Source of the DNA: an uncultured Bacteroidales bacterium
Lineage (GTDB): Bacteria > Bacteroidota > Bacteroidia > Bacteroidales > Paludibacteraceae
DNA length: 64,000 nucleotides
Assembly (NCBI GenBank): GCA_902785605.1
Contig: CACZZL010000014.1
Span: forward strand, 1 to 64,000
Reading direction: 5' to 3'
Below, in pieces: positions 1,185-62,973 of the stretch. The notes under the pieces were generated by a model that was not told the DNA's origin, ran no database searches, and saw only the letters and a list, made by a program, of their open reading frames with translations. The translations under genes were made by a program, and so were the position numbers. How positions within the stretch are numbered: position 1 is the first letter of the stretch; each line of letters begins with the position of its first letter.

Positions 1185-1218
1185 GAATTGAAATTGAAAT
1201 TAAAAATTAAGAATTAAT
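1185..1218. repeat. Heptamer array (AATTGAA/ATTAAAA type)
   Basis: About five degenerate 7-bp units. The array includes the xseA stop codon, so the last residues of XseA are repeat-encoded, and it lies just before the GTG start of the next gene. Confidence 0.75.
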
Positions 1219-2280
1219 TATTGTGCTGTGCACAATGCCGTCGGCGAGATGGGTCGTGATTTGATCACCGGGTTGGAGCTCGTTGACCGAGCGGATGACA
1301 TGACCGTCCTTGGTGAGCAGGCTGTAACCCATGCGGTAGATGCGCTCGGGATTGCAGGCCGTCAGGCGTTGACGCAGCAGTTCGATGCGGTGGCGGCGAA
1401 TGAGAATCTGCCGCTCTTTGGTGCGTTGTAACCGTACTCGGAGGTCGGCTATCCGCGATTTCTGCTCGTCCATGCGGTGAATGAGCCATTCGGCTACGGC
1501 AGTCGGGGTCTTGAGCGACAGATGCGCTACCAGGTCCAAAACGGAGATGTCCCGTGTGTGTCCGATGCCGCTGACGATAGGCAGTTCGAACTGCGCACAC
1601 ACCGCACAAAGGGTGTAACTGTCGAAACAACTGAGGTCGGTCGTGGCACCGCCGCCGCGGATGATGACAACGATGTCGAATCCACCTACTGTGGATATCT
1701 CTTCGAGTGCGGCAAGAATGGATTTCTCGGCTCCGGCCCCTTGCATAGTCGCGCCAAATAGCTGTGTATCAAACCGATAAGGGCTGTTGTCCAATTGGTG
1801 CTTGAAATCTTCGTACCCGGCCGCGTTGGCGGAAGATATGACGGCGATACGGCGAATGAGGGTAGGGAGTTGTAGCAGTTGTTGCGCTTCGAGCAGTCCG
1901 TCCGCCTGTAGTTGCAGGATCGTCTGCTGCCGTTGTCGGGCGATGTCACCGAGTGTGTAGGACGGGTCGATATTAACGATGTTGAGACTCAACCCATAGA
2001 CAGGGTGGAACTGTATCTCTGTTTCTACCAGAATGGCCATTCCCGGCTGGAGCGTCTGGCCGGTCTCGGAGGCGAAATAAGCCAGCAGCAACTCTTTGTT
2101 ACCTGCCCAACAGGTGGCGCGCACCTTGGCGGATTTACCATCTACTAACTCCATATACAGATGGCCGCCCCGTTCGCTGAGGCTGCTAATCTCGGCTTTC
2201 ACCCAATAGGAAGGAGCCAGACTGTCGTCCAGCACTTCGCCGATGATGGCGCACAGTTCGGTGAGGGTAATTGGGGTCAT
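1207..2280 (-). CDS. xseA: Exodeoxyribonuclease VII large subunit
   Basis: XseA forms the nuclease with XseB and degrades single-stranded DNA to oligonucleotides. The 357-residue product has an N-terminal OB-fold (about 1-95) and the catalytic exonuclease VII domain. The latter shows IIRGGGATTDLSCF and GIGHTRDISVLD, and then KTPTAVAEW. I start at ATG 2280 (MTPITLTELC). The frame stays open further upstream, but that extension is only the translated promoter at 2298-2329. The end is encoded by a heptamer array. xseB is not in this window. The protein is somewhat shorter than typical XseA. Confidence 0.93.
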   Translation of the reverse strand: MTPITLTELCAIIGEVLDDSLAPSYWVKAEISSLSERGGHLYMELVDGKSAKVRATCWAGNKELLLAYFASETGQTLQPGMAILVETEIQFHPVYGLSLNIVNIDPSYTLGDIARQRQQTILQLQADGLLEAQQLLQLPTLIRRIAVISSANAAGYEDFKHQLDNSPYRFDTQLFGATMQGAGAEKSILAALEEISTVGGFDIVVIIRGGGATTDLSCFDSYTLCAVCAQFELPIVSGIGHTRDISVLDLVAHLSLKTPTAVAEWLIHRMDEQKSRIADLRVRLQRTKERQILIRRHRIELLRQRLTACNPERIYRMGYSLLTKDGHVIRSVNELQPGDQITTHLADGIVHSTIINS

Positions 2281-2297
2281 GGCTTTCAATTTGACTG

Positions 2298-2329
2298 CAA
2301 AATTACTACAAAAATTGCAAATACGCAAG
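2298..2329 (-). promoter_or_regulatory. Promoter of xseA
   Basis: On the minus strand, a -33 box CTTG (2326-2329) and a -7 box TAATTTTG (2298-2305) are separated by exactly 20 bp. The start codon at 2280 lies only about 12 bases beyond the expected transcription start. Confidence 0.8.
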
Positions 2330-2358
2330 TTTTTACGGATGAAAATGCAAAAAATCCG

Positions 2359-3411
2359 TTATTGTGTATCCGTCTGTTTTCTCAGGGCGACGAAGTAGAA
2401 TCCGATCAGCAGGACATAATAGAGCGCGATCAGGTACCCGTTGGTGTGGGCAGGGAACGTGCTGCCGGGCAGGCTCTCTATCCATCCGACAGAATGGTTC
2501 ATGAGCCATGCGAGTGCTTCGGTCGCTTTGCCGATCCATTGTCCCGCCCAAGTTCCTCCCAAGGCAATCGTAGCCAAGCCAAACGGCACCAAGAGTGTGG
2601 CGAGCGGTAGGACGATGAGGTTGGTGAGCAGGAAATATGCGGAAACCTGGTGGAAGTAATAGATGGTGATGGGTAGCGTGCCTAATTGGGCCGCGAGTGA
2701 GACAATGACAGTGCCCGTGATCCATGCTACGATTCGACCGGCCCAGCCGCTCAAATACTTTCGGCTAAACCAACCCTCGAAGCCTTTGGCACAGAGCACA
2801 ATCGCTGTGGTAGCCGCAAAACTGAGTTGGAAACTGACGCTCCACAGGTCTGTCGGGCGGAAGATGAGAATGAACACGGCAGCGGAAGCGATCGCATTGA
2901 GGCTGATGGGGTTGCGGTAGGCCATTCGGCTGATCTCGATCATACAGACCATGATGACGGCCCGCACGACCGAAGGAGTCATGCCGGTCAGCCACGCGTA
3001 CGCCCACATGACGGTCATGATGATAAGGCTGATGGTCCATCGTCCGAAGCGGTTCTCGTGCATCGGCCGTAACCGTCCGCCCAGCGTGAGGAGCCACAGC
3101 ACCAATCCGTAGATGATACCCGTGTGCAGTCCGCTGACGGCCAACACATGTGCGGCTCCGGATGCCTGAAAATGGTGTTTGAGTTCTTTGTTCAGGTCCT
3201 GCTTGTATCCCAAGGTGAGCGCCCCGACCGTGGCTAACTCGTCTCCTTCCAGGCCCGCGTCTGCCAGGCGTTGATAGAGCCGTTGCTGCATGGTGTTGGG
3301 CGTCTGTTTGGAATACGCGTACCGGTCCGGCGGGTCCATAAAAAGCAGTATTGCCGCCACCATCGGCAGCAGCAATACGATCATCGGATAGGAGCGGAAG
3401 TCAGCCATCAT
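2359..3411 (-). CDS. ComEC/Rec2-family channel protein, core domain only
   Basis: A 350-residue polytopic membrane protein with the Competence domain hallmark HVLAVSGLHTGII near residue 88 and about nine predicted membrane segments. ComEC forms the inner-membrane pore for single-stranded DNA uptake. Full ComEC proteins also carry an N-terminal OB-like domain and a C-terminal metallo-beta-lactamase domain. Both are absent here, and the flanking frames leave no room for them. It starts at ATG 3411, immediately after a heptamer array that also provides the purine-rich ribosome-binding region. It ends the long operon of minus-strand genes. A reduced transporter and a DNA-uptake protein are both possible. 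Confidence 0.8.
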   Translation of the reverse strand: MMADFRSYPMIVLLLPMVAAILLFMDPPDRYAYSKQTPNTMQQRLYQRLADAGLEGDELATVGALTLGYKQDLNKELKHHFQASGAAHVLAVSGLHTGIIYGLVLWLLTLGGRLRPMHENRFGRWTISLIIMTVMWAYAWLTGMTPSVVRAVIMVCMIEISRMAYRNPISLNAIASAAVFILIFRPTDLWSVSFQLSFAATTAIVLCAKGFEGWFSRKYLSGWAGRIVAWITGTVIVSLAAQLGTLPITIYYFHQVSAYFLLTNLIVLPLATLLVPFGLATIALGGTWAGQWIGKATEALAWLMNHSVGWIESLPGSTFPAHTNGYLIALYYVLLIGFYFVALRKQTDTQ

Positions 3412-3412
3412 T

Positions 3413-3440
3413 TTTCATCTTTCATCCTTCATCTTTCATC
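3413..3440. repeat. Heptamer array (TTTCATC x4)
   Basis: Units TTTCATC, TTTCATC, CTTCATC and TTTCATC. Read on the minus strand it encodes the last residues and the TGA of rpe and reaches the start of comEC. Confidence 0.9.
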
Positions 3441-4072
3441 TTCCGGATCGCTTCTTCGGGATCGTCGGCACCGAACACGGCACTTCCTGCCACGAGCACA
3501 TCAGCTCCTGCAGCGAACAGTTCAGCTGCGTTGCGGGTGTTGACACCGCCGTCTATCTCAATGAGCGTGTTCAAGCCGCGGCGGTCGATCTCCTGACGGA
3601 TGAAACGGATCTTATCCATGGTCTTGGGAATGAACTTCTGCCCACCGAAGCCGGCAAAGACGGACATGAGCAGCACCATATCCACTTGGTCCAGATACGG
3701 CACCAGACGCTGCACATCAATGTCGGGGTTGATGGTAAGGCAGGTACGCACCCCTTTGGCTTTGATGAGGTCCAGGATTGGCATAGGGTCTTCTACCGCC
3801 TCCAGGTGAAAACCGACCGACCATGCGCCGGCATCGCAGAAACGCTCCACGTACTTCTCCGGATGAACGATCATCAGGTGCACGTCCAACGGTTTGGTGC
3901 AGTATTGGCGCATTGGCTCCATGAGCGGAAAACCGAAGGAGATGTTGGGCACGAATGTTCCATCCATCACATCAATGTGTAACCAATCCGCTTCGCTGCG
4001 GTTGATCATCTCTAAATCGTCTGCCAAGTGTCCGAAATCGGCCGACAGAACAGAAGGGGCTATCAGTTTCAT
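3422..4072 (-). CDS. rpe: Ribulose-phosphate 3-epimerase
   Basis: Interconverts ribulose 5-phosphate and xylulose 5-phosphate in the pentose phosphate pathway. The 216-residue TIM barrel is complete: SVLSADFGHL at the N-terminus, LHIDVMDGTFVPN, DVHLMIVHPEKY, then MSVFAGFGGQKF and EIDGGVNTRNA near the end. The usual NPGFGGQ is FAGFGGQ here. The final KMKDEG and stop are encoded by the heptamer array. It follows the response regulator by 29 bases that hold a second array. Confidence 0.95.
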   Translation of the reverse strand: MKLIAPSVLSADFGHLADDLEMINRSEADWLHIDVMDGTFVPNISFGFPLMEPMRQYCTKPLDVHLMIVHPEKYVERFCDAGAWSVGFHLEAVEDPMPILDLIKAKGVRTCLTINPDIDVQRLVPYLDQVDMVLLMSVFAGFGGQKFIPKTMDKIRFIRQEIDRRGLNTLIEIDGGVNTRNAAELFAAGADVLVAGSAVFGADDPEEAIRKMKDEG

Positions 4073-4085
4073 AGTATTACATTCC

Positions 4086-4113
4086 TTTCATTTTTCATCT
4101 TTCATTTTTCATT
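4086..4113. repeat. Heptamer array (TTTCATT x4)
   Basis: Units TTTCATT, TTTCATC, TTTCATT and TTTCATT. The array overlaps the 3' end and stop of the response regulator gene and runs toward the rpe start. Confidence 0.9.
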
Positions 4114-4773
4114 CTGTACCAGTTTATACCCCTTGTAGCGCACGGCGATGATTTGGTAGCCGGCAGGGGTAAGGTATGTACGTAAGTGGTTGATATACAC
4201 GCCCAAGGAACGGGCGGTGAAAGCGTTGTCCTGTTTCCACAGGGCAGAGAGGATGCGGTGGCGGTCCACCACTTCTCCTTCATTGCGGCAGAGCATAAGC
4301 AGCAGGTCGCTCAGTCGGGAGGACATATGTTGTGTATCGAAAGTCTGATGCGTGGCATCGAACGTGTGCCCGTTGAGATTGAAGACCCGTTTCTTGCGTT
4401 CCTCATATTCGCGTACGCGCCGAAGAATGGCTTCGATGCGGCAGATGAGGATGTCCATGGAGAACGGTTTGGTCTGAAAATCATCGCAGCCCAACTGGAA
4501 CGCGCGCATCTGGTCTTCGCGGTCGTTGCGTGTGGTGAGCACGATGAGTGGAATGAAAGGCAAACGGTGACGGATGTCTTTGATCAGTTCGTATCCGTTG
4601 ATGCCGACACCCTGCAGTTCCATGAGTACCGCGTCCCAATATTCCCCGGCCAGCAGATCCAAACCCGCCTTGCCGTCACTGACGCGTTGCGCCTTGTAGC
4701 CGCGGCTGGTGAGGTAGTCGCAGAGCACGGTGGAAAGGCTGATGTCGCCGTCAATGATGAGAATCTTGGTCAT
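4102..4773 (-). CDS. OmpR/PhoB-like response regulator with altered phosphoacceptor
   Basis: A 223-residue protein with an N-terminal receiver domain (about 1-120) and a C-terminal winged-helix DNA-binding domain (about 130-223). The receiver looks degenerate. The phosphoacceptor Asp is replaced by Glu (AVLMELQGVGINGYEL), and the acidic pair near the N-terminus is DG (LIIDGD). The conserved Lys is kept (TKPF). This suggests regulation without ordinary phosphorylation, or constitutive activity. No histidine kinase gene is adjacent. Instead it is the seventh gene of an operon with a phosphatase/anti-sigma-like protein and alarmone enzymes, 5 bases after the tyrosine-type phosphatase. The C-terminus is repeat-encoded. 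Confidence 0.88.
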   Translation of the reverse strand: MTKILIIDGDISLSTVLCDYLTSRGYKAQRVSDGKAGLDLLAGEYWDAVLMELQGVGINGYELIKDIRHRLPFIPLIVLTTRNDREDQMRAFQLGCDDFQTKPFSMDILICRIEAILRRVREYEERKKRVFNLNGHTFDATHQTFDTQHMSSRLSDLLLMLCRNEGEVVDRHRILSALWKQDNAFTARSLGVYINHLRTYLTPAGYQIIAVRYKGYKLVQNEK

Positions 4774-4778
4774 GGAGA

Positions 4779-6157: not shown

Positions 6158-6163
6158 CAGTAT

Positions 6164-7039: not shown

Positions 7040-7044
7040 AGATT

Positions 7045-8094: not shown

Positions 8095-8095
8095 A

Positions 8096-8398: not shown

Positions 8399-8399
8399 A

Positions 8400-13181: not shown

Positions 13182-13209
13182 ATAACCCATAACCTATAAC
13201 CTCTCACCT
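13182..13209. repeat. Heptamer array (ATAACCT x4)
   Basis: Units ATAACCC, ATAACCT, ATAACCT and CTCACCT. The ctpA stop codon lies inside the last unit. Confidence 0.85.
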
Positions 13210-17654: not shown

Positions 17655-17673
17655 TTTATAAATATTTTTATCT

Positions 17674-17736
17674 TTAAACTTTCAACTTTCTACGAGAAGA
17701 CTTCTCTCAACTCTCAACTTTCAACTCTCAACTTTA
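17674..17736. repeat. Heptamer array (TTTCAAC/TCTCAAC) with palindromic core
   Basis: TTTAAAC, TTTCAAC and TTTCTAC units, then GAGAAGACTTCTC (17695-17707, a perfect inverted repeat with one central base), then TCTCAAC, TCTCAAC, TTTCAAC, TCTCAAC. It fills the typA-tig gap and starts directly after the typA stop. Confidence 0.85.
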
Positions 17737-21281: not shown

Positions 21282-21316
21282 ATTCTTAATTCTTAATTTT
21301 TAATTCTTAATTATAG
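21282..21316. repeat. Heptamer array (ATTCTTA/ATTTTTA)
   Basis: Five units between tgt and the LptF/G gene. The last unit covers the tgt stop codon. Confidence 0.88.
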
Positions 21317-27286: not shown

Positions 27287-27314
27287 GTAACCGGTAACCG
27301 GTAACCCGTAACCC
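27287..27314. repeat. Heptamer array (GTAACCG/GTAACCC x4)
   Basis: Units GTAACCG, GTAACCG, GTAACCC and GTAACCC within the untranslated leader of rplS. Confidence 0.9.
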
Positions 27315-30269: not shown

Positions 30270-31619
30270 ATGTCTATTATCGAACAGAGCGAGATTCTCC
30301 GCAGGCGCGACATGCGTGATGTGTTCACGTTTACCATCGATCCGGCAGACGCGAAGGACTTTGACGATGCCCTTTCGTTTGCGGTCGTGAATGACGAAGA
30401 CCAATCACCAATTTTCCAGATTGGTGTCCACATAGCCGATGTCTCTTTCTATGTGCGGCCGAATACCAAGGTTGATGACGATGCCTACAAACGTGGAACG
30501 TCTGTGTATCTGGTAGATCGCGTGCTGCCGATGCTGCCCGAAGAACTGTGTAACGACAAGTGCTCGCTGCGACCCAACGAGGACAAACTTTGTATGTCCG
30601 TCGTGTTCACGATGGACGCAGACGCGCGCGTACTCAAATATAAAATATGCCGCACCGTCATTCGCTCCAATGCCCGCCTCAACTACGACGAGGCGCAGGA
30701 AATTATAATTAAAAATTCAAAATTAAAAATTAAGAATGAAGAATTGTCGGACGCAATAACCATTCTCCATTCTTTAGCACAGAAGCTCCGCGCTGAACGC
30801 ATTGCCAACGGAGCACTCACCATCGAACAGGAAGAGATGCGGTTCCGCTTGGACGAACACGGACATCCGACGGAGATATACTTCGAGCAGTCCAACGAAG
30901 CGCACCATCTGATCGAGGAGTTTATGCTGCTTGCAAATCGTACTGTCGCCAAAGCAGTCGGTTCGGGAAGGCCGTTCGTCTACCGTGTGCACGACCTGCC
31001 GAACGCAGACAAACTGGATGAATTACAGGCGTTTAAACGCAAGATGGGCAAGCGTGTGTCGCAGCAGGCAATCGACATGCTCACCATTCGCGCCCAAGCG
31101 AAAGCCGTCTATTCGACCTATAACATCGGACACTACGGCCTGGCGTTCACACACTACACTCATTTCACCTCTCCTATCCGCCGATACCCGGATTTGATGG
31201 TCCACCGACTCGTAGAGAAGTATATCCTCACCGGCAAGAAAGAAACGCTTACCCGCGAAGAGTTGGAAGAGAAATGCGAGCACTGTTCGGCATGTGAGCA
31301 GGAAGCGGCACAGGCCGAACGCGATTCGATCAAACTGTTCCAGACCATGTGGATGAATGACCATATCGGCGAAATACTCCCCGGACACATATGCGGTGTG
31401 ACGGAATTCGGATTGTTTGTCCAATTGGACGAGTCCCGCTGTGAAGGATTGGTGCATATCTCCAAAATCGGTGAACCGGGCGAGTACTGGCAGTACGATG
31501 AGAAGAACTACCGACTCGTTTGTGAGAACAAGAAAAGTTATACCTTAGGCGACGCTGTAACCGTAAAAGTAGTCCGTGCGGACATTAATCGTGCACAAAT
31601 AGACTTCGAAATATCATAA
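30270..31619 (+). CDS. RNase R-like exoribonuclease without N-terminal cold-shock domains
   Basis: A 449-residue RNase II/R-type 3'-5' exoribonuclease. It starts directly with the catalytic RNB domain: TIDPADAKDFDDALSF near residue 24 contains the magnesium-binding aspartates. HYTHFTSPIRRYPDL follows near 300, then a C-terminal S1 domain (VTEFGLFVQLD). Full RNase R is over 700 residues with one or two OB-type domains first; the promoter directly precedes this start, so they are absent. A heptamer array at 30707-30741 encodes residues about 147-158 (KNSKLKIKNEE) in frame. Confidence 0.85.
   Translation: MSIIEQSEILRRRDMRDVFTFTIDPADAKDFDDALSFAVVNDEDQSPIFQIGVHIADVSFYVRPNTKVDDDAYKRGTSVYLVDRVLPMLPEELCNDKCSLRPNEDKLCMSVVFTMDADARVLKYKICRTVIRSNARLNYDEAQEIIIKNSKLKIKNEELSDAITILHSLAQKLRAERIANGALTIEQEEMRFRLDEHGHPTEIYFEQSNEAHHLIEEFMLLANRTVAKAVGSGRPFVYRVHDLPNADKLDELQAFKRKMGKRVSQQAIDMLTIRAQAKAVYSTYNIGHYGLAFTHYTHFTSPIRRYPDLMVHRLVEKYILTGKKETLTREELEEKCEHCSACEQEAAQAERDSIKLFQTMWMNDHIGEILPGHICGVTEFGLFVQLDESRCEGLVHISKIGEPGEYWQYDEKNYRLVCENKKSYTLGDAVTVKVVRADINRAQIDFEIS
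30707..30741. repeat. In-frame heptamer array (AATTAAA type) inside the RNB gene
   Basis: Five units AATTAAA, AATTCAA, AATTAAA, AATTAAG, AATGAAG, kept in frame within the catalytic domain gene. Confidence 0.9.
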
Positions 31620-32659: not shown

Positions 32660-32694
32660 TTTAGCCAATAACCTTTAGCCTTTAGCCATTAGTT
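32660..32694. repeat. Heptamer array (TTTAGCC type)
   Basis: Units TTTAGCC, AATAACC, TTTAGCC, TTTAGCC, ATTAGTT between the rpoD stop and its terminator. Confidence 0.88.
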
Positions 32695-33564: not shown

Positions 33565-33580
33565 CTTAACTTTTGTTAAG
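33565..33580 (-). promoter_or_regulatory. Hairpin directly before the rpoD start
   Basis: CTTAAC and GTTAAG flank a 4-base loop two bases upstream of the rpoD ATG, where it could limit ribosome access. The arm merges with a heptamer array. Confidence 0.4.
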
Positions 33581-33611
33581 AGTTTAGAGTTTAAAGTTTA
33601 GAGTTTAGAGA
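33575..33611. repeat. Heptamer array (GTTTAGA x5)
   Basis: Units GTTAAGA, GTTTAGA, GTTTAAA, GTTTAGA, GTTTAGA in the rpoD leader. Confidence 0.88.
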
Positions 33612-33660
33612 AGTTTGTGAGTTTATGAGTAGCAAGTTATGCAGACTAATACCTATATAA

Positions 33661-33714
33661 CTTTCAACTTTCCACTAGAAGACTTCTTTCAACTTTCAAC
33701 TTTCAACTCTCAAC
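33661..33714. repeat. Heptamer array (TTTCAAC) with palindromic core
   Basis: TTTCAAC-type units on both sides of AGAAGACTTCT (33677-33687). The arrangement matches the array downstream of typA and lies between rpoD and tRNA-Arg. Confidence 0.88.
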
Positions 33715-33723
33715 TATATTCAG

Positions 33724-36530: not shown

Positions 36531-38474
36531 CTAGTTATAAAAGTGCCAAGCCAGGCCTGCGCGGAACACATCTCGGTTGGTCGGGTAGCCGGGCATGGTC
36601 AAATATCCTGTGTTGTTCTTAAAGAACCAATAACTGACATGTTGGTAATGCGCAAAGAAGCGCAAGCGGATCGAACGTACATAGAAATTGGCATATACGT
36701 TCATCCATGGGTAGTTTCCTACCGTTTCTGTCTGCTGCGTGGCATAAAGCCCCGTGGACGGACAGAGCACCGGTGCGTGGTACTTGGTGAAGTACCGTAA
36801 ATCCACACCGATCTGGGCATCCAGCGCCCGGAACCAGGTTCCGTGGTAGTACAGCCGATGCTGTAGAATAACCAGCGGAACAGGTAACACGCTGTCGTTG
36901 GTGGAGTGCTGAATGACTGCGCGGTTCTCTAAATTAATCCACGGCGTGGTCAAGTCCACTCCTGCGTCCCCGGTCAAGATCTGTACATTGCCTCCGTACT
37001 GGCGGGGACACCAGTCCGAAGCAGAGAAATAAATAGGACGGGTCTGATTCTCGAAACTGAAGTCCAGTCTCAACTTGACCCATTTGGTGGGGTAGGCGAC
37101 CGTTGCTCCTCCCAGGAAACGGTACGTGAACTTGAAATCGTTCTCCCACCGGATATGGTTAGAGCGGTAGTGCTGTAAGTACCAACTCGGTTTCTCGCTC
37201 TTCGCATAAGCGCGCGCAGCGATAATAAACGGATACTTACCGGCCATGAACTTCGTCTCCAAACGGCCGTTCACGTCAAACTCACCGATCTTATATCCCA
37301 CCACGCACACTTTGCCTTCCACGTTGTAGTGCACGTGCGTACCGCTGTGTTTGTGCAACGCACCTCCGACATACGTATTGTTCGTCCATTTGTAGTCGTA
37401 GATGCTGTCGTATGGAACCGTGTCGTTCAAGAACCGTTGGCACTCGTTCATCGCAAACGCGGTGATACCGAACTTGAGTTTGGTATTATACGCCTCGCAG
37501 AACGTGACCGCGATCGTGTTGCGAATGGTCAGCACATCGGTCGAATCGTGCGTCTTGCTCTGGTCGTAATACGTGGTATCATAAAAATCCTGATTCGCCG
37601 TCTTCTCAATATACCTACGATTAGAGTTATTAGTCTCGAACACATGACTGAATGTCAGCAACGGGATATACTCTACCTTGATCGTATCTTTTTTAATTCG
37701 CCGTCCGTCCTCAATCACATAAACCGAATCATGATACTCCCGCTCCGTGGAGATGGCGTACTGGTTATGCAGGTAGCCGCTCAAATACCGATAGCCGGTC
37801 ATGGCGTTCATCTTCACCGGTAAGTCTTCGGCACTCAGACTTCCGCCTAACTGGCTCACATCCCGTAAACCTCCGTTGTCGAACGAACTGAGCTTACTCC
37901 ATCCGAACGCTGCATGCATACTGTAATGCGCACCGGTGTAACTGCCCCATACCGATCCGCGGAACAGCTTTCCGGCTGTGTTGGCATAGTGACCGATCGA
38001 ATTGAGGTAGTCCATCTCCACTCCTAAGTTCAGCCGTTTGCTCAAGTTGCCGGTGAACAGAAAATCCACGTCGTTCTCCTCGTGTGCGCTCACAAAACCT
38101 TTCTTGTACGCCACCGTCGAATACGGCGTAGTGGTGTTGAAAAAACGTTGCTGCTGAGGCGTGACTACATAAGGCGCCAAGCTCCATGCAAACGGGTCGT
38201 CTATCGTACGCACGCGGTCATTGATGATGCGGCTCTCGATAGGCGAAACCAGCACGTTGCCATTAGTCACACTGCTCATCGAGTACAACTGCTGCACATC
38301 GACGTCGTGGAAATTGAGTGTGGCCGTGTCGGTGAACACCACCGTATCCGCCACCGCAGTGTAACCCGGCATCTGCCACGTATGCACAATAGTCGGTGTA
38401 CGCGGCTGTTTGGCAGCGGCCACAATGGTCGCTGCCAACAGCACTAATACTATTAAAAGTCTTTTAACTTTCAA
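36531..38474 (-). CDS. Putative outer-membrane porin (porin_10-like)
   Basis: A 647-residue protein with a signal peptide (about 1-21). A long beta-barrel pattern rich in Tyr and Asn ends in LTMPGYPTNRDVFRAGLAWHFYN. This end and overall plan match the Bacteroidota putative-porin family. The only start that keeps the signal peptide is TTG 38474, because a stop precedes it and the next Met is at residue 30. This start and the first residues lie in a heptamer array. It sits between the GH57-like gene and clpC. Confidence 0.85.
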   Translation of the reverse strand: MKVKRLLIVLVLLAATIVAAAKQPRTPTIVHTWQMPGYTAVADTVVFTDTATLNFHDVDVQQLYSMSSVTNGNVLVSPIESRIINDRVRTIDDPFAWSLAPYVVTPQQQRFFNTTTPYSTVAYKKGFVSAHEENDVDFLFTGNLSKRLNLGVEMDYLNSIGHYANTAGKLFRGSVWGSYTGAHYSMHAAFGWSKLSSFDNGGLRDVSQLGGSLSAEDLPVKMNAMTGYRYLSGYLHNQYAISTEREYHDSVYVIEDGRRIKKDTIKVEYIPLLTFSHVFETNNSNRRYIEKTANQDFYDTTYYDQSKTHDSTDVLTIRNTIAVTFCEAYNTKLKFGITAFAMNECQRFLNDTVPYDSIYDYKWTNNTYVGGALHKHSGTHVHYNVEGKVCVVGYKIGEFDVNGRLETKFMAGKYPFIIAARAYAKSEKPSWYLQHYRSNHIRWENDFKFTYRFLGGATVAYPTKWVKLRLDFSFENQTRPIYFSASDWCPRQYGGNVQILTGDAGVDLTTPWINLENRAVIQHSTNDSVLPVPLVILQHRLYYHGTWFRALDAQIGVDLRYFTKYHAPVLCPSTGLYATQQTETVGNYPWMNVYANFYVRSIRLRFFAHYQHVSYWFFKNNTGYLTMPGYPTNRDVFRAGLAWHFYN

Positions 38475-38530
38475 CTAAACTACTTTCAACTATAAGACTT
38501 CTCTCAACTCTCAACTTTCAACTCTCAACT
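38464..38530. repeat. Heptamer array (TTTCAAC) with reduced core
   Basis: TTTCAAC/TCTCAAC units flank AAGACTT (38494-38500), a short version of the core seen at 17695 and 33677. It spans the start of the porin gene and the stop of the GH57-like gene. Confidence 0.85.
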
Positions 38531-39790
38531 TTTTTTCTTCAACTTCGCTTGAAGAACTTGAATCTCCTCCTCCTGATTGCGGATAGTCTTGAGCAACTCG
38601 TTCAATTCTTCGTTCTCGATCGTTGTCGGATATTGCTCCTCTACCGTCTGCAGGAAGTCAGACAGCACGTTCATGTAGTTGATGAACGCATCGTAAGCCG
38701 ATTCATACTGCGTCTCGCCTTGGTCGATGTGGTTCATGTAGTGCAGATAGTTCACATCCTGCAGACGGAGCCAGTTGGTCTTCAGGCTCTTGTCCTGGCA
38801 CAGGTGTACACGCTCTGCTACAGCGAACAACTTATGAATAGCCTCTTGCTGCAGGTCATTACCGGCGTAAACGCTCAGGTCTTTCGCCTCTCCGCTCCAT
38901 GTCAACGGATACGGACTCGACAGTACGTCGTTAGCAGCCAGTTTCTTGGCAGCCTCAGCCGGGGTCATGAAGCCCATCTCACGCTCCAATGCATAGTACG
39001 GTAGCGCCTTGAGGAAATCGAAGATACCCGTTCCTGCATTCTGACGAACACCGAACGTCTCGGCGCCTACCCAGATATTGACGATCTCGTCCTCTGCAGG
39101 CAGAGACTGCAACATGTTCGCATATTTCTCCGCATCCATCGGGAAATTAGCCCAATTGGGGTCCGAGAAATGGAAACTCAACTCGTCGCTGAGATTGGTG
39201 TTGCGCAGCAGCACTTTCATCTTCGGTGCACCGGCCGACTGATACAGATGATTCGGGGTCTTCCAACTGATGATATGCTTGGCACCTTCGGTGAGCATCA
39301 CCTTATAACCCATCTTGTTCAACTGATAAGCGGTCTCATCCGTGTACAGCAACTCGGTGTTCCAAATAGTGGTAGCTTTCACACCGAAAATCGACTCCAG
39401 CAACTCAGCCTGTTTCTTGAACTGCTCTTTCATCTCGCTCTCGTTGTACTCCGATGCCAGCGAATAACTGTACGGGGTAGCCAGGAACTCAACGCACTTG
39501 GTAGCTGCCAACTCCTTGAGGATATCAATCATCTCAGGGTTGAACTGCTCGAACATCTCAATCATCGTTCCGCTTACGCTCAATGCGCAGTGGAATTTGC
39601 CTTTGCTCAACTTGATCATGTCATTGATAGTCTGGCAGAGCGGCATGTAGGAGGTTTGAACAAGCCAGTTAACATGTTCCTCGGTAGCCATGTCATCGTA
39701 GTAGTAATGATCATGACCGATTTCGAAGAAACGATAGCGCTTCAGACGATATGGGCTGTGCATCTGGAAGCAGAAACATATATTTTTCAT
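38525..39790 (-). CDS. GH57-family glycoside hydrolase-like protein
   Basis: A 421-residue protein of family GH57 (alpha-amylase/4-alpha-glucanotransferase type). The start CFCFQMHSPYRLKRYRFF is typical. The nucleophile Glu appears in IWNTELLYTDE. The acid/base segment that usually reads DYETFGEH is GAETFGVRQN here, with Asp replaced by Gly, so activity is doubtful or altered. The C-terminal 60 residues are coiled and charged. It follows a GT4 gene and the debranching enzyme, pointing to alpha-glucan metabolism. Confidence 0.85.
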   Translation of the reverse strand: MKNICFCFQMHSPYRLKRYRFFEIGHDHYYYDDMATEEHVNWLVQTSYMPLCQTINDMIKLSKGKFHCALSVSGTMIEMFEQFNPEMIDILKELAATKCVEFLATPYSYSLASEYNESEMKEQFKKQAELLESIFGVKATTIWNTELLYTDETAYQLNKMGYKVMLTEGAKHIISWKTPNHLYQSAGAPKMKVLLRNTNLSDELSFHFSDPNWANFPMDAEKYANMLQSLPAEDEIVNIWVGAETFGVRQNAGTGIFDFLKALPYYALEREMGFMTPAEAAKKLAANDVLSSPYPLTWSGEAKDLSVYAGNDLQQEAIHKLFAVAERVHLCQDKSLKTNWLRLQDVNYLHYMNHIDQGETQYESAYDAFINYMNVLSDFLQTVEEQYPTTIENEELNELLKTIRNQEEEIQVLQAKLKKKS

Positions 39791-39791: not shown

Positions 39792-39832
39792 ATCTTAATT
39801 TTTAATTCTTAATTTTTAATTTTGAATTACAA
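39792..39832. repeat. Heptamer array (ATTTTTA/ATTCTTA)
   Basis: About six units between the GT4 stop and the GH57-like start. The last unit covers the GT4 stop codon. Confidence 0.88.
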
Positions 39833-43080: not shown

Positions 43081-43114
43081 GATTGTGATTTAATATTAAG
43101 TAATAATGTTAAAA

Positions 43115-43163
43115 AATCCTAAAACCTAAATCCTAAATTTGAAATCCTAAATCCCAAATTACA
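43115..43163. repeat. Heptamer array (AATCCTA x7)
   Basis: Seven units (AATCCTA, AAACCTA, AATCCTA, AATTTGA, AATCCTA, AATCCCA, AATTACA) from the manC stop toward the debranching gene. Confidence 0.9.
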
Positions 43164-44274
43164 ATTCATTTATGAATTGTTTAATCCGCTGCTCCTCCGC
43201 TTTCTTGCAGATGAGCAACGCACCGCTCTGCTCGGCAATGATCATATCATCCACCCCTTGTACAATCGCCACCTTACCGGGCTCTAACACCACAATATTA
43301 CCTTGCGCCTCATGGAAATGAGCGGTACTATGCAGACTCACGTTCTGCTGTTCATCCTTCTCGCTCAACTCATACAGGCTGCCCCAGGTGCCCAGGTCAC
43401 TCCAGCCGAAACTGGACGGCAACACATAGACATTGTCCGCTTTCTCCATAATACCGTAGTCAACGGATATATTCGGGCATTTGGGAAAATTATGCTCGAT
43501 GAAATCGCGCTCTTTCTCCGTTCCTATCAACCCCTCTCCCTGTGCAAAGATGTCCGCTATCTCCGGCATATAGCGCCGAATAGCCTCATCAATCGTCTTC
43601 AGACTCCACACGAAAATACCGCTGTTCCACAGATAGTCTCCGCTCGCCAGGTACTTCTTCGCTGTCTCTAAATCCGGCTTCTCCTTGAACTCCTTAACCG
43701 AATAGATACCATCTCCTTTCGCCTTCAACCTTTCACCTTTCACCTCATCCAATTCGTTCGCGAATTGGATGTACCCGTATCCGGTCTCGGGACGGGTAGG
43801 CTGCATGCCTAACGTACAGATAGCCTCGTTCTTGCCTACAAAATCAAACGCCTGCAATATCGTCTGACGGAACTTCTCCTCCTCCAGAATCAAATGATCA
43901 CTCGCCGCCACAACTATCTTTGCTTCCTGTAACCCGTAACCGGTAACCCGTAACCGCTCTTTTATCCAAGCAACGGCATACGCGATACACGGAGCTGTAT
44001 TACGCCGCGCCGGCTCGCACAGAATCTGACTCTCCTGCATGTCCGGAACCTGCTCCAAAATCAACTCCTTGTATGCCACATTCGTTACAATCACCATGTT
44101 CTCAATTGGAACAATCGGACGAAAACGGTCCACCGTCATCTGCAACAAACTTCTACCCGTACCGAAGAAATCCAAGAACTGCTTCGGCTTACGCTCTGTG
44201 CTGAACGGCCAGAAACGGCTTCCAATGCCGCCGGCCATGATCACGCAATAATTGTTTTTATGATTTTCTGTCAT
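43159..44274 (-). CDS. manC: Mannose-1-phosphate guanylyltransferase
   Basis: Forms GDP-mannose from mannose 1-phosphate and GTP. The 371-residue product has the nucleotidyltransferase signature MAGGIGSRFWPFSTERKPKQF (first 20 residues cited in part), CEPARRNTAPCI, and VKEFKEKPD with the catalytic lysines. ATG 44274 follows the promoter leader. Two in-frame heptamer arrays encode RVTGYGLQ (about residue 110) and ERLKAKG (about 180). It heads the run through glycogen genes to clpC-trxA. Confidence 0.92.
   Translation of the reverse strand: MTENHKNNYCVIMAGGIGSRFWPFSTERKPKQFLDFFGTGRSLLQMTVDRFRPIVPIENMVIVTNVAYKELILEQVPDMQESQILCEPARRNTAPCIAYAVAWIKERLRVTGYGLQEAKIVVAASDHLILEEEKFRQTILQAFDFVGKNEAICTLGMQPTRPETGYGYIQFANELDEVKGERLKAKGDGIYSVKEFKEKPDLETAKKYLASGDYLWNSGIFVWSLKTIDEAIRRYMPEIADIFAQGEGLIGTEKERDFIEHNFPKCPNISVDYGIMEKADNVYVLPSSFGWSDLGTWGSLYELSEKDEQQNVSLHSTAHFHEAQGNIVVLEPGKVAIVQGVDDMIIAEQSGALLICKKAEEQRIKQFINEL
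43717..43744. repeat. In-frame heptamer array 1 in manC
   Basis: Units TTTCGCC, TTCAACC, TTTCACC and TTTCACC, coding on the minus strand for a GERLKAKG-like surface stretch. Confidence 0.9.
43929..43956. repeat. In-frame heptamer array 2 in manC
   Basis: Units GTAACCC, GTAACCG, GTAACCC and GTAACCG, coding for LRVTGYGL on the minus strand. The same unit type occurs in the rplS leader and the dus gene. Confidence 0.9.
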
Positions 44275-44296
44275 GTTCAATTTTTGAAAAAGCGTG

Positions 44297-44328
44297 CAAA
44301 TATACAACTTTTATTTTATATATGCAAG
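44297..44328 (-). promoter_or_regulatory. Promoter of the manC-glycogen-clpC run
   Basis: On the minus strand a -33 box CTTG (44325-44328), 20 bp with CATATATA, and a -7 box TATATTTG (44297-44304). A CG tract lies directly upstream, as at typA. Confidence 0.82.
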
Positions 44329-44381
44329 CGCGCGCGAAAATATTTTTAAAAAAGTGACTTTTTGTTCAAAAAAAGCGTTTC

Positions 44382-44412
44382 TTTCAACTTTCAACTTTCA
44401 ACTTTCAACTTT
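44382..44412. repeat. Heptamer array (TTTCAAC x4) in the gldD promoter
   Basis: Four TTTCAAC units end 6 bases before the -7 box and occupy the place where the -33 box should be. Confidence 0.92.
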
Positions 44413-44418
44413 AATTAG

Positions 44419-44426
44419 TACCTTTG
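44419..44426 (+). promoter_or_regulatory. -7 box of gldD without a recognisable -33 box
   Basis: TACCTTTG matches the -7 consensus. At the 20-bp distance stands CTTT from the heptamer array instead of YTTG. Confidence 0.6.
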
Positions 44427-44445
44427 CATCGTAATTTGGAGTAAA

Positions 44446-45051
44446 ATGGAGTTTTTGCAAAAAAATAGAATTTTAAATTTTAAATTTTTAATTTTTAATT
44501 TGGCGGTGTTGTTAACATGCGTTGCTTGCAACCATGTGTCAACGCCTCGCCCCTACGGCTACTACCGTATCACGACGCCGGACACTGCATACCTGCCCTT
44601 CGATACACGTCATGCGAACTATCCCTACACTTTCGATCTGTCGCAAAACGCAGAAGTCAGACCGCGCACAGATGTGACCGAACCCTATTGGATCAACATC
44701 TACTACCCCGCTCTGGATGCAACCATCCACTGCTCCTACAAAACCGTGAACCGTAACCTGCGGGAGCTGACCAATGATGCACTCGAGTTTGTGTACCGCA
44801 ACGCATCCTTTGCCAATGCCATCCCGGAGAGAGAGTACTCCCATCCCGAAGCAGACGTCTATGGAGTACTGTTCGACTTGGAAGGCAACACCGCTTCCTC
44901 TTGTCAGTTCTTTGTCACGGATTCAACGCACCATTTCTTCCGCGCGTCCGTCTACTGTAACTGCCCGCCGAACGCCGATTCGTTGGCACCCGTATACGAC
45001 TATTTGCGCACAGATGTAATTCGCATGGTCGAGTCCTTTGAGTGGAGGTAA
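44446..45051 (+). CDS. gldD: Gliding motility lipoprotein GldD
   Basis: A 201-residue lipoprotein of the gliding/type IX secretion set. It matches GldD: GYYRITTPDTAYLPFD near the N-terminus, EPYWINIYYPALDATIH, and GNTASSCQFFVTDSTHHFFRA in the C-terminal half. It ends PNADSLAPVYDYL then VESFEWR. The signal region (about 8-27) ends at a Cys in LTCVAC. A heptamer array at 44470-44497 encodes much of its hydrophobic core. It heads the run gldD-pcrB/tadA-pgpH-dus-BASS. T9SS activity fits the secreted proteins at 50.7-59.4 kb. Confidence 0.92.
   Translation: MEFLQKNRILNFKFLIFNLAVLLTCVACNHVSTPRPYGYYRITTPDTAYLPFDTRHANYPYTFDLSQNAEVRPRTDVTEPYWINIYYPALDATIHCSYKTVNRNLRELTNDALEFVYRNASFANAIPEREYSHPEADVYGVLFDLEGNTASSCQFFVTDSTHHFFRASVYCNCPPNADSLAPVYDYLRTDVIRMVESFEWR
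44470..44497. repeat. In-frame heptamer array encoding the GldD signal region
   Basis: Units ATTTTAA, ATTTTAA, ATTTTTA and ATTTTTA, translated as ILNFKFLIFN. Confidence 0.9.
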
Positions 45052-45110
45052 ATCGTCAATTAAAATCAATCGTCAATCAATCGTAAATCGTAAATTTGTC
45101 AATCGTCAAT
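45051..45110. repeat. Heptamer-like array (ATCGTCA/ATCGTAA) at the pcrB start
   Basis: Imperfect ATCGTCA and ATCGTAA units fill the gap after gldD and include the TTG start and the first codons of the next gene. Confidence 0.8.
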
Positions 45111-46295
45111 AAAAATAGAAAAGCTCTCGCTCTCCTTCTCGACCCCGAGAAAGCAGATCTCTCCCGCCTTTCCTTTACCGAAGAGGTGCACCCCGACTAC
45201 GTTTTCGTCGGCGGTTCCACCGGTGGGGATACCACAGATTTTGTCCGTGCCCTCAAGAAAAAACTATCACCAATCACCAATCACCAATCACCAATAGTTT
45301 TATTCCCCGGAAACGCGGAGCAGTTCACACCCGAGGCAGATGCGATCCTCTTTCTCTCCCTTCTCTCCGGTCGGAACCCCGAGTACCTGGTAGAGCAGCA
45401 GATACGAAGTGCTGAGGCAATCAAAAAATCGCAGATTCGCTCGATTCCAACGGCCTATATCCTCATAGACGGTGGGGTAGAGACATCCACCATGCGTGTG
45501 ACCCATACTTTGCCGATTTCATCGGACAAAAAAGACGAGATAGTGGCTACTTGTGTAGCAGCTGAACTGATGGGTAAAGAGGCAATCTATCTGGAGGCTG
45601 GAAGTGGTGCAAAAGTGCCGGTTTCAACGGAAATAATCCAAGCCGTTCGTGCAGCTACAAAATGTACGCTCATCGTTGGTGGCGGAATTCGTACACCCCA
45701 AGCCATGAACGCCGCCTACGAGGCCGGAGCAGACATCGTCGTCATCGGAAACCACTTCGAGTCCCATCCCGAGGAATTGGCACAATTCTGTCGAGAGGTC
45801 GATCGTCAATCTAATCAATTGGACAATAAATCGTTAAATCGTCAATCGTCAAATCGTCAATTAGACGATGAGCGCTTCATGCGTCTCGCCTTGCTCGAGG
45901 CCGAAAAAGCCCTTGACGCTAATGAGATACCCATCGGTTGCGTGATCGTTTCGCAAAACCAGATCATCGGCCGCGGTCATAACCTCACAGAGACCTTGTC
46001 CGATGTCACCGCGCATGCCGAGATGCAAGCAATAACAGCTGCAACCCAGACCGTAGGAGGCAAATACATTCCCGATGCCACGCTCTATGTCACCGTCGAA
46101 CCCTGTCCGATGTGCGCAGGGGCGATCGGCTGGGCGCAGATAAGCCGAATCGTTTACGGCGCACCTGATCCCAAACGCGGCTACACGACCTACGCGCCTC
46201 GCGCCTTCCACCCCAAAGCAACCGTCACGGCAGGGGTGCTCGAAGCCGAGTGTCGCGAATTAATGCAGAACTTCTTTAAAAAGAAAAGAATATGA
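45096..46295 (+). CDS. Fusion of a PcrB/GGGP-synthase-like enzyme with TadA
   Basis: One 399-residue frame. Residues about 8-232 match PcrB/geranylgeranylglyceryl-phosphate synthase-like enzymes of Bacteroidota (LLLDPEKADL, DYVFVGGSTGG, VLFPGNAEQF, YLEAGSGAKVPV, LIVGGGIRTPQA). Residues about 256-399 match tRNA adenosine deaminase TadA, with AHAEMQAI and EPCPMCAGAI. The linker (about 236-255) is Asn/Gln/Ser-rich and encoded by a heptamer array. The start is TTG 45096; no ATG is available. An in-frame ATG at 45879 could make TadA alone. The end overlaps pgpH as ATGA. Confidence 0.85.
   Translation: MSIVNKNRKALALLLDPEKADLSRLSFTEEVHPDYVFVGGSTGGDTTDFVRALKKKLSPITNHQSPIVLFPGNAEQFTPEADAILFLSLLSGRNPEYLVEQQIRSAEAIKKSQIRSIPTAYILIDGGVETSTMRVTHTLPISSDKKDEIVATCVAAELMGKEAIYLEAGSGAKVPVSTEIIQAVRAATKCTLIVGGGIRTPQAMNAAYEAGADIVVIGNHFESHPEELAQFCREVDRQSNQLDNKSLNRQSSNRQLDDERFMRLALLEAEKALDANEIPIGCVIVSQNQIIGRGHNLTETLSDVTAHAEMQAITAATQTVGGKYIPDATLYVTVEPCPMCAGAIGWAQISRIVYGAPDPKRGYTTYAPRAFHPKATVTAGVLEAECRELMQNFFKKKRI
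45266..45293. repeat. In-frame heptamer array (ATCACCA x4) in the pcrB part
   Basis: Four identical ATCACCA units encode SPITNHQSPI just before the conserved VLFPG strand. Confidence 0.95.
45801..45863. repeat. In-frame heptamer-like array forming the PcrB-TadA linker
   Basis: Imperfect ATCGTCA/AATCGTC units lie exactly between the two enzyme domains and contain no stop in this frame. Confidence 0.85.
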
Positions 46296-48169: not shown

Positions 48170-48171
48170 AT

Positions 48172-48231
48172 CGTCAATTAATAACAATCGTCAATAAATC
48201 GTAAATCGTAAATTGGTAAATCGTAAATTAT
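48172..48231. repeat. Heptamer-like array (ATCGTCA/ATCGTAA) at the dus start
   Basis: The same unit type as before pcrB. It contains the TTG start and first codons of the dihydrouridine synthase. Confidence 0.8.
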
Positions 48232-50325: not shown

Positions 50326-50426
50326 GGTATTCTCGTTCTTCAACCTGTTTCCTTTTGCCCCCTCGTTAACGTTGTCCCTTCCTCCTTACAACGTTCCTTC
50401 TTTCGTTTTCGGTCCTATAGTACGAG

Positions 50427-50492
50427 ATTAGTAGAATATTAGTAGGATATTAGTAGGTGATTAGTAGGTGATTAGTAGGTTATTAGTAGGTG
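50427..50492. repeat. Six tandem 11-bp repeats (ATTAGTAGGTG)
   Basis: Six uninterrupted copies: ATTAGTAGAAT, ATTAGTAGGAT, ATTAGTAGGTG twice, ATTAGTAGGTT and ATTAGTAGGTG. The period is close to one helical turn, so all copies face the same side of the DNA. Confidence 0.95.
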
Positions 50493-50582
50493 ATAATCGG
50501 TCCGATTAACGGATAATTACCTTACGTCTTTATCCCGTTTATGTCCGCTTACAGAGTAAAAATGAAAAATTCTGCAAATTTA

Positions 50583-59429: not shown

Positions 59430-59450
59430 AAGGTTCTACGTGCCAACAAA

Positions 59451-59482
59451 ATAGGGGCCCCTATCGGAGCCCCTATTTTTAT
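59451..59482. terminator. Terminator between protein B gene and alkaline phosphatase
   Basis: AATAGGGGC (59451-59459) pairs perfectly with GCCCCTATT (59470-59478), with T-rich flanks on both strands. The two genes converge here. Confidence 0.9.
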
Positions 59483-59487
59483 ATCCA

Positions 59488-59515
59488 TTAGCCTATAACC
59501 TTTAGCCTTTCACCC
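59488..59515. repeat. Heptamer array (ATTAGCC/TTTAGCC type)
   Basis: Units ATTAGCC, TATAACC, TTTAGCC and TTTCACC, ending right at the alkaline phosphatase stop. Confidence 0.88.
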
Positions 59516-60910: not shown

Positions 60911-60916
60911 ATACAA

Positions 60917-62201: not shown

Positions 62202-62225
62202 GTACTCAAATTAATAAAAACGCTG

Positions 62226-62257
62226 CAAAGTTACACTTTTTTTTGCATATATGCAAA
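62226..62257 (-). promoter_or_regulatory. Promoter of the DUF5063-exonuclease run
   Basis: On the minus strand a -33 box TTTG (62254-62257), 20 bp, and a -7 box TAACTTTG (62226-62233). Confidence 0.88.
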
Positions 62258-62273
62258 TTTTGTAGTATCTTTG
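62242..62273 (+). promoter_or_regulatory. Promoter of the 62297 gene
   Basis: A -33 box TTTG (62242-62245), 20 bp ending GTAG, and a -7 box TATCTTTG (62266-62273). Confidence 0.9.
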
Positions 62274-62296
62274 CAGCGTTTTTTAAATTAAACGTT

Positions 62297-62938
62297 ATGA
62301 GAAAACTATTTGTAATGGCCTTTATGGCTATGAGTATGGTGATGATGGCGCAGCATGTGACTCCGCTTAACATCCAAATTGCAGAGGTGAAACTGGATTC
62401 GCTGCGTACGTTGTATCAAACGGAGCCGACGATGTACCGCGCATCGCTCGATGTAGTGGCACAGCAATTGGCGCGTAACAATGAGGAAATCAAACAGGCG
62501 GAAGCAGAGCTGAAGTCCGAGCAGGCGCATGCCAAGGAGATGGAGAATGCCATCAAAGAGGCGACCAAAATGTCCGCATCCCTCAAGAAACTGTATGCCA
62601 AAGAGGAGTCGGAGATCAAATCCATGCAGAAGATCGTAGAGAAACAGCAGCGTGCACTCAACAAACAGAAAGCACTCAACGAAGCAAACAAACAGAACTA
62701 CAGCCAGTTGCTCGAGCAGCAGCAGAAAGAACTGGGCTACGAACTGCGCGAGATAGCAGAGCGTATACGCGCCATCTCCGACCTCGAGTCCGTGCTGCAG
62801 AATAGCCAAACCAACCTTATCGCTTTCATGCGCGAGATCGAGGATAAAGCAACCCGTTTGGCTACCCTCAAAGCGCAATACAAAGAGCGTCTGGCTATCC
62901 TCAAAGCAGAGCAGAAAGCCGCTAAATCGATGCAATAA
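62297..62938 (+). CDS. Periplasmic coiled-coil protein
   Basis: A 213-residue protein with a signal peptide (MRKLFVMAFMAMSMVMMAQ). After about 35 residues (LNIQIAEVKLDSLRTLYQ) it is almost entirely a long coiled coil rich in Lys, Glu, Gln and Ala. It recalls the tentacles of OmpH/Skp-like chaperones or EnvC-type proteins, but no catalytic or binding motif is seen. It may be co-transcribed with upp. Earlier starts only translate the promoter. Confidence 0.75.
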   Translation: MRKLFVMAFMAMSMVMMAQHVTPLNIQIAEVKLDSLRTLYQTEPTMYRASLDVVAQQLARNNEEIKQAEAELKSEQAHAKEMENAIKEATKMSASLKKLYAKEESEIKSMQKIVEKQQRALNKQKALNEANKQNYSQLLEQQQKELGYELREIAERIRAISDLESVLQNSQTNLIAFMREIEDKATRLATLKAQYKERLAILKAEQKAAKSMQ

Positions 62939-62941
62939 CAT

Positions 62942-62973
62942 CTAATTCTCTAATTCCCTAACTCCCTAATTCA
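62942..62973. repeat. Octamer array (CTAATTCC x4)
   Basis: Units CTAATTCT, CTAATTCC, CTAACTCC and CTAATTCA between the coiled-coil gene and upp. It is built like the heptamer arrays but with period 8. Confidence 0.88.

Follow-up and report, generated by a model that had tools for sequence, protein, structure and literature searches.

Arrays of 7-bp period with many units in an uncultured Paludibacteraceae bacterium: short genome patches that differ between relatives and are likely copied between loci

The genome of an uncultured Bacteroidales bacterium of the family Paludibacteraceae (GenBank assembly GCA_902785605.1) is studded with short tandem arrays of strict 7-bp period, which we describe here for the first 64,000 nucleotides of contig CACZZL010000014.1 (this whole stretch is called the window in the following) and for a larger sample of the same genome. 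The arrays use many different units, lie in gaps between genes as well as within genes, and at one and the same site sister species often carry another block or none, which points to a process by which small stretches of the genome are overwritten. Our preferred explanation, to which we assign a probability of about 0.42, is slippage with a 7-bp step combined with copying of array patches of ~30 bp during replication or repair, the outcome being filtered by selection.

Arrays were located with a lag scan (match +1, mismatch -2) using a loose (score at least 8) and a strict threshold (score at least 12). The window holds 27, 24, 22 and 17 lag-7 arrays at scores of at least 8, 9, 10 and 12, respectively, compared with means of 1.0, 0.3, 0.2 and 0.0 in ten locally dinucleotide-shuffled windows; a run with 20 shuffles was consistent with these values at the thresholds of 10 and 12. 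Any other lag between 4 and 13 yielded 0-2 arrays at a score of at least 12, and Tandem Repeats Finder (TRF) returned 26 period-7 rows for the window (counted by hand). The heptamer-period arrays of the original prediction, which had been made by a model from the letters of the window, are therefore real, and the single period-8 case is likewise present at 62941-62969. The same prediction had arrays following each other about every 2 kb up to position 62973. They are indeed numerous, but their distribution is uneven, and the final lag-7 array with a score of at least 8 stops at 48213. Past this point the TRF output contains a weak row of period 7 (48669-48701) and one of period 14 (59480-59508), so that the range up to 62973 depends on these two rows and on the period-8 array.

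The excess predicted for the genome as a whole was also found. In a sample of 864 kb (the window plus 800 kb) out of 2.08 Mb, from a genome that is 83.5% complete, the strict scan detected 139 lag-7 arrays versus none in one shuffled copy. Other lags between 4 and 13 gave 0-16 arrays (10, 16, 9, 12 and 11 for lags 6, 8, 9, 11 and 12), and lags 14, 21 and 28 merely echo lag 7. The 139 arrays use 55 units, mostly G-poor on one strand. Since 35 units occur once each and five units account for 59 arrays, the idea that each array has its own unit holds for the singletons only, while the other units recur in families. Nor is the proposed length of four units (28 bp) the typical one: among 119 arrays with a score of at least 14, lengths of 30-33 bp are commonest (39 arrays), and 24 bp is also frequent (9 arrays). 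Arrays are denser in noncoding than in coding DNA, with 668 versus 67 per Mb in this genome (464 kb), 277 versus 23 in the related genome G002, 453 versus 32 in G022 and 539 versus 19 in G015; G003 is an exception (173 versus 145).

The single generating process that had been suggested in place of one repeat family is in line with the many units, the one dominant period, the genome-wide excess and the clade specificity. The units are, however, not unrelated throughout. Among 177 arrays (score at least 11) from five species there are 359 same-unit pairs, versus 22.6 for random noncoding 7-mers, and 126 of these pairs share the end phase and 94 the start phase, where 51 would be expected. Phase-locked ends are evident in the GTAACCC family, in which 22 of 24 arrays end with ..AACC(C), and 24 of the 30 arrays of the ATTTTTA family have a common end phase. 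An imperfect 26-mer is shared by 48 pairs, compared with 25.1 +- 4.6 and a maximum of 36 in 60 permutations of unit order, and sharing at K = 18, 20, 22 and 28 likewise exceeds every permutation. Because families recur with shared boundary phase and partly shared variant order, the process probably includes copying from one locus to another; as judged from these sequence patterns, such copying is likely. A connector is common to three composite elements (Table 1). Its exact pattern, AGACTTCTNTCAACT (N = C, T or A), occurs in three copies only in the sequence scanned, blastn matched the element in other genomes of the genus, and the 30-bp CTCTCAA arrays at 17704-17733 and 38501-38530 are identical. 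When the flanks of the arrays of this genome were compared, only a small number proved to be shared, and many of these are the sequence separating two adjacent arrays.

Turnover was assessed at orthologous sites. Two of the 139 arrays without a flanking gene call were dropped from all context counts (n = 137); 49 of the 137 had orthologous sites (309 pairs) and 88 had none among the compared sequences. Of the 309 comparisons, 200 showed other sequence in the relative, 98 an array of one period or another, and 11 no more than 12 bp. Units matched within one base in 21.7% of orthologous period-7 pairs (60 pairs, 20 arrays) versus 10.7% of non-orthologous ones, and thus a minority of arrays is inherited. 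Junction A, located behind gene 39827-41077, illustrates this variability: in 28 relatives it contains period-7 or period-14 arrays (10 cases), arrays of period 15-16 (3) or none at the threshold used (15), and the units vary between species. Upstream of gene 41086-43080 the array is flanked by a stop codon on one side and by a conserved leader of ~20-25 nt on the other; in several relatives this junction consists of hardly more than the leader, and others have different arrays or hairpin repeats. The site at 43929-43955 is taken up by 80-152 bp of different coding sequence in four of the six relatives shown, and that at 45266-45295 by hairpin inserts (L011, L027, L033; assessed by eye, as are all hairpin inserts reported here) or by period-7 arrays (L010, L019, L023). 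The complete identity of the array at 27287-27314 with its counterpart in G003 may reflect recent transfer, copying or constraint.

Arrays within genes number 52, versus none after one round of codon shuffling. Stop codons are present in the antisense direction only in 27 of their units, in the sense direction only in three, in both in eight and in neither in 14 (p = 8e-6 for 3 versus 27). When differences of 150 bp or more are omitted, the length difference between these genes and their relatives is a multiple of 3 in 82 of 86 pairs, and in 19 of 20 when the best relative per array is used. The differences are not multiples of 7, so the arrays often replace sequence and are not cleanly inserted. 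At C8:79306, the sequence is exactly 21 bp shorter in four relatives, 15 bp shorter in a fifth and 3 bp longer in a sixth. As the frame is kept and the sense strand is mostly free of stops, the arrays lie within translated genes, and selection filters them.

The context of the 137 arrays was derived from gene calls made by our own script, in which starts are uncertain and some long gaps may hide genes: 72 arrays lie in co-directional gaps, 52 in genes, seven in convergent and six in divergent gaps. No fewer than 51 of the 72 co-directional arrays begin at the upstream stop codon or within 10 bp of it. With the array's own length counted in the gap, an array is present in 47 of 174 gaps of 21-100 bp versus 14 of 89 gaps of 101-400 bp (p = 0.045), and the gap minus the array has a median of 30 bp versus 38 bp in array-free gaps. 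Junctions in relatives also harbour a second class of filler, recognized by eye, in which a constant string of 8-10 bases (TAATAGAACG, or TGTAAGACCG / AGACCGC..AAAGAC) alternates with short hairpins of varying sequence. It occupies sites where relatives carry heptamer arrays, and was seen in L065 (~7125-7255), in L025 (upstream of the homologue of 41086-43080) and in L014, L016, L021, L027 and L037.

One site stands apart. The product of 44446-45051 is GldD according to Pfam, and at the promoter of its gene an array is found in 13 of the 14 relatives with a matched site, L015 being the one without. These arrays end 6-11 nt before a TANNTTTG core, which we take to be the Bacteroidota promoter core, and comprise at least eight different units (promoter-array units are CTTTCAA, CTTTCAC, ATTTTTA, AATTATC, ATCAATT, TTTTCGA, TTTCGCC, CTTTCTG or AATTTTC). 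Here the letters of the array vary but the array itself remains, a pattern compatible both with a functional requirement for period 7 and with copying from array to array. Among the arrays of the 28 nearest named loci, TA(C/T)NTTTG occurs 4-12 nt downstream in 11 cases and nowhere else between -5 and 66 nt; ten of the 11 are at locus positions corresponding to the window gldD promoter, nine being matched by flank comparison as well. In the genome under study, the 4-12-nt bin contains four arrays (44381, C5:38965, C8:98723 and C3:23049) versus 0-2 in any other bin. The nearest open reading frames behind them encode GldD, an FtsK-like protein, an S9 peptidase and an amidase (Pfam) and have nothing in common other than envelope and housekeeping roles. 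Only four of 99 intergenic TACCTTTG(C/T) cores have an array at this distance, and TANNTTTG lies within 30 nt on either side of seven of 137 arrays compared with a rate of 0.073 at random intergenic positions; promoters in general are thus not enriched for arrays. A general role as promoter element was rejected, with four of 139 arrays in the 4-12-nt position here and none of 80 in G002, G003, G022 and G015. In addition, a promoter-like element of ~150 bp recurs across this genome with 75-85% identity, at window 44287-44438 and at G000 C8:98627-98780, C17:29459-29637 and C10:29277-29428; its CTTTCAAC array was checked at the window and C8 copies only.

The glycosyltransferase encoded in the window groups with uncultured Paludibacteraceae and Bacteroidales metagenome-assembled genomes (MAGs), mostly from ruminant guts. 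Grouping the compared loci ourselves (77 of 80, without L055, L059 and L071), we counted 52 strict lag-7 arrays in the 28 nearest named loci (364 kb), at least one being present in 16 of these, 14 in 144 kb of other Paludibacteraceae, three in 117 kb of Paludibacter-like and three in 283 kb of other Bacteroidales sequence. Three further genomes of the genus contain three, two and one arrays in 20 kb each, and five genomes of the same order none in 260 kb, while 80 kb of G387, from another family, contain six, which belong to the same unit families. The original prediction mentioned strings of this kind in other Bacteroidales; they exist in relatives and in G387 but not in most of the order sampled. 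The CTYTCAAC pattern was found in nine of 395 Bacteroidota genomes drawn and has 25 sites in this genome versus 12 for the backwards-read control, and two pattern scans of viral contigs returned 12 and 21 stretches. The step size differs by lineage: loci L019-L033 have 45 lag-7 and four lag-11 arrays, L034-L045 plus L085 seven and 13, and G002 carries many arrays of periods 8, 11 and 16 alongside those of period 7. In the open-licence PMC literature we found no report of such arrays in Paludibacteraceae.

We propose that the arrays are short repetitive patches, mostly of 23-35 bp, that replication or repair in the cell would generate and disperse without the need for a dedicated enzyme. Slippage between short direct repeats M situated 7 bp apart could produce M(NM)n arrays, the 7-bp step being a presumably heritable bias of the clade. 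Existing patches would then be copied elsewhere in the same genome, often replacing resident sequence, as the sharing statistics suggest, probably via microhomology-guided template switching or short-patch illegitimate recombination. Selection, evident in genes and presumably also at work in gaps, would set where patches survive, the available slots being the gap between a stop codon and the next leader and tolerant stretches of proteins, so long as the reading frame is not broken. The gldD promoter seems to require an array, any T-rich heptamer unit sufficing, and most other patches would be nearly neutral with fast turnover. Several observations weigh against this explanation. The evidence of copying is of moderate strength: in the CTTTCAA family the arrays do not end in one common phase, 35 of the 55 units occur singly, and sharing at K = 24 (58 versus a maximum of 58) and K = 30 (14 versus a maximum of 17) falls inside the permuted range. 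Between species, 26-mer sharing is not in excess (27 versus a mean of 18 and a maximum of 32), and cross-species copying was rejected on this ground. One genome per species was compared and no copying event was seen. As the gldD promoter shows, neutrality does not hold for all arrays, and a neutral process might prefer long gaps, not the short ones favoured here. The frame test is not a clean contrast, since gap length differences are multiples of 3 in 22 of 32 divergent and 84 of 184 co-directional pairs. Finally, the explanation gives no cause for the 7-bp step; MutS and RecJ are both present, so that loss of either, rejected as a candidate, cannot explain the clade.

Among the competing explanations, purely local slippage with a 7-bp step, whereby every array grows from its own site and recurring units stem from AT- or pyrimidine-rich composition and short seeds, accounts for the singleton units and fits the M(NM)n array ends. 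The connection of heptamers with the polymerase footprint reportedly goes back to Mrazek in 2007. In the portions available to us, PMC4692102 ties bacterial heptamer over-representation to this footprint, and PMC9879509 judges Borg repeats, which are unique per locus, to be local. Local growth is nevertheless doubtful in view of 359 same-unit pairs instead of 22.6 with 126 shared end phases, the shared variant order (48 versus 25.1 +- 4.6), the one connector in three composite elements and the swaps of whole units with the array kept at the gldD promoter. That promoter (13 of 14 relatives, at least eight units), the restriction of the core to 4-12 nt downstream of 11 arrays in the 28 loci and four in this genome, and the greater density in short co-directional gaps argue for elements selected for a spacing, binding or RNA role in operon junctions and promoters, whose period and length outweigh their bases. 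We consider such a role rather doubtful for the arrays at large, as 52 of 137 are within genes, only 98 of the 309 site pairs show an array in the relative, and neither the 4/99 cores, the 0/80 arrays of four relatives nor the 7/137 arrays near TANNTTTG speak for promoters in general.

A templated patch-writing process that continually overwrites tolerant stretches of ~30 bp with a species-specific palette of heptamers and a lineage-specific step (7 here, more often 11 in a set of more distant relatives) is unlikely in our estimation; if true, it would be a new mutational process supplying new operon-junction, promoter and protein sequence genome-wide. Insertion of heptamer patches of ~30 bp with defined ends, by a tiny mobile element or by a dedicated writer that uses templates, is quite improbable. 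Phase-locked ends in some families, the commonest length of 30-33 bp and composite elements with matches dispersed in the genus would suit it, but the many units would demand many templates, and this genome, at 83.5% completeness, has no RVT_1, Ku or Y1_Tnp match (other enzyme classes were not searched). RVT_1 is present in only five of 25 genus genomes, Ku in none of 41 genomes, and Y1_Tnp gives weak matches in ten of 25 genus genomes (best E 2.9e-8). Telomerase-like templating by a reverse transcriptase, filler DNA from Ku-dependent non-homologous end joining and a Y1 transposase of the repetitive extragenic palindrome (REP)/RAYT type were rejected as candidates on these counts. A device for stopping translation in three frames could exploit that 7 is not a multiple of 3 and that most units contain a stop codon: a stop on either strand is present in 0.847 of units, above all 200 letter permutations (mean 0.762, maximum 0.842), and co-directional arrays have sense-only stops in 34 of 72 cases versus antisense-only stops in ten. 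This strand bias is gone more than 10 bp past the stop (7 versus 5 of 21), the remaining arrays overlap or closely follow the gene's own stop, and such a terminator was rejected as very improbable. Nearly all compared sequences are draft metagenome assemblies; an assembly artefact can still practically be dismissed, for arrays occur in MAGs from several projects and the frame is kept in 82 of 86 pairs.

The positions of the arrays and of an adjacent tRNA gene in the window are compiled in Table 1.

Table 1. Repeat arrays and associated features in the 64,000-nt window
Feature	Position	Strand	Remarks
AAATTAA x3 array	1197..1217		covers stop of gene 1207-2280(-); score 11
Array, sense AAGATGA x5	3408..3442	-	covers stop of 3422-4072(-) and start of 2359-3408(-)
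Array, sense AATGAAA x4	4086..4113	-	covers stop of 4102-4773(-)
ATAACCT x4 array	13182..13209		convergent genes on either side
Composite element	17672..17733		short array, AGAAGACTTCT connector, CTCTCAA x4 at 17704-17733
Array, sense TAAGAAT x4	21282..21312	-	begins at stop codon of 21311-22444(-)
GTAACCG/GTAACCC x4 array	27287..27314		G003: 28/28 bases identical, flanks 82% identical
AATTAAA x5 array	30707..30744	+	within 30270-31619(+), one open frame
CCTTTAG x3 array	32672..32692		convergent genes on either side; score 11
GTTTAGA x5 and CTTTCAA x4 arrays	33575..33715		separated by AGAAGACTTCT connector
tRNA-Arg(tct) gene	33723-33797	-	after the array pair 33575..33715
Composite element	38461..38532		irregular CTTTCAAC copies, AAGACTTCT connector, CTCTCAA x4 at 38501-38530
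Array, sense AATTAAA-type x5	39795..39828	-	junction A; from stop codon of 39827-41077(-) onward
AAATCCT array	43114..43159	-	between stop codon and conserved leader of 41086-43080(-)
ACCTTTC array	43728..43745	-	within nucleotidyl-transferase (ManC-like) gene 43159-44307(-); common to relative L022
GTAACCC array (sense GGGTTAC)	43929..43955	-	within ManC-like gene 43159-44307(-)
CTTTCAA x4.5 array	44381..44412	+	ends 6 nt 5' of promoter-like TACCTTTGCA, upstream of gldD (44446-45051)
AATTTTA x4.7 array	44469..44501	+	near gldD start
Irregular AATCGTC repeats	45063..45110		part of dispersed ~62-bp repeat
ATCACCA x4 array	45266..45295	+	near N-terminal end of 45096-46295(+)
TAAATCG array	48195..48213	+	lag scan
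Period-11 array ATTAGTAGGTN x6	50427..50491	+	TRF and lag scan
Period-8 array CTAATTCC x3.6	62941..62969		TRF and lag scan

Apart from the heptamer arrays, the window contains two copies (45049-45110 and 48167-48228) of a dispersed ~62-bp repeat of the AAATCGTC type, which is also found at G000 C8:98800-98864 and C10:116728-116791, the copies being 86-90% identical. Period-11 arrays with ACCTACTAATC / ATTAGTAGGT are located at differing loci in several species (window 50418-50494, L115 5735, L026 2616, L035 10493). A sequence of ~60 bp in L118 (17604-17666) is dispersed in many copies in the genus, with matches of 82-98% identity listed in ten of 11 genus genomes searched. Window positions 2359-3411 encode a ComEC-like protein (competence channel core), and natural DNA uptake would bear on the idea of patch copying.

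With ~160 arrays per megabase and 24 congeneric species, gain, loss and replacement of arrays can be read site by site in this genome. If patch copying is true, it constitutes a class of mutation outside standard models, by which operon junctions and protein loops would be rewritten apparently faster than point mutation alters the neighbouring genes. The gldD promoter, where the array persists and the unit is swapped, offers a testable case of period outweighing sequence. Short-patch double illegitimate recombination (SPDIR) is a microhomology-mediated replacement of short segments, the donor often residing in the same genome. The arrays described here resemble its products in that they replace short segments, but no event has been observed, and to our knowledge SPDIR has not been described as spreading periodic arrays.

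Over-representation of heptamers in bacteria has been noted since 2007, its cause being left hypothetical in the part of PMC4692102 at our disposal, which describes heptameric simple sequence repeats with the units GGGAATC in Xanthomonas and GGGGA(C/T)T in Nostoc. As far as that part of the paper goes, these share with our arrays the 7-bp unit, the intergenic excess, variation of length and sequence between close species and the absence of an assigned function. They differ in having one G-rich, quadruplex-prone unit per genus, whereas we counted 55 units in 864 kb, most of them poor in G on one strand (GGGAATC, GGGGATT and GGGGACT in none of 139 arrays, GGG/CCC in 19 of 139 units), 52 of 137 arrays in genes and differing units at orthologous sites. 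The TAACTGA direct repeats of Beggiatoaceae, Cyanobacteria and some Bacteroidetes, as they appear in an excerpt of PMC4679880, are also heptamers, mostly in few copies and in some cases over gene ends, and their forward copies place stops in all frames. Theirs, however, is one fixed unit, located in the main genome mostly just upstream of start codons, and none of our 139 arrays consists of TAACTGA. Borg tandem repeats, in the sections of PMC9879509 accessible to us, resemble our arrays in being genome-wide, fast evolving, both genic and intergenic and of several unit lengths, but their in-gene units are all divisible by three and unique per locus, whereas 7-bp units occur in genes here and units recur. 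Heptamer repeats as such are already known; the form with many units that are swapped at a given site is new, and it is distinguished by the combination of many recurring units of one non-triplet step, use within genes and wholesale exchange at orthologous sites.

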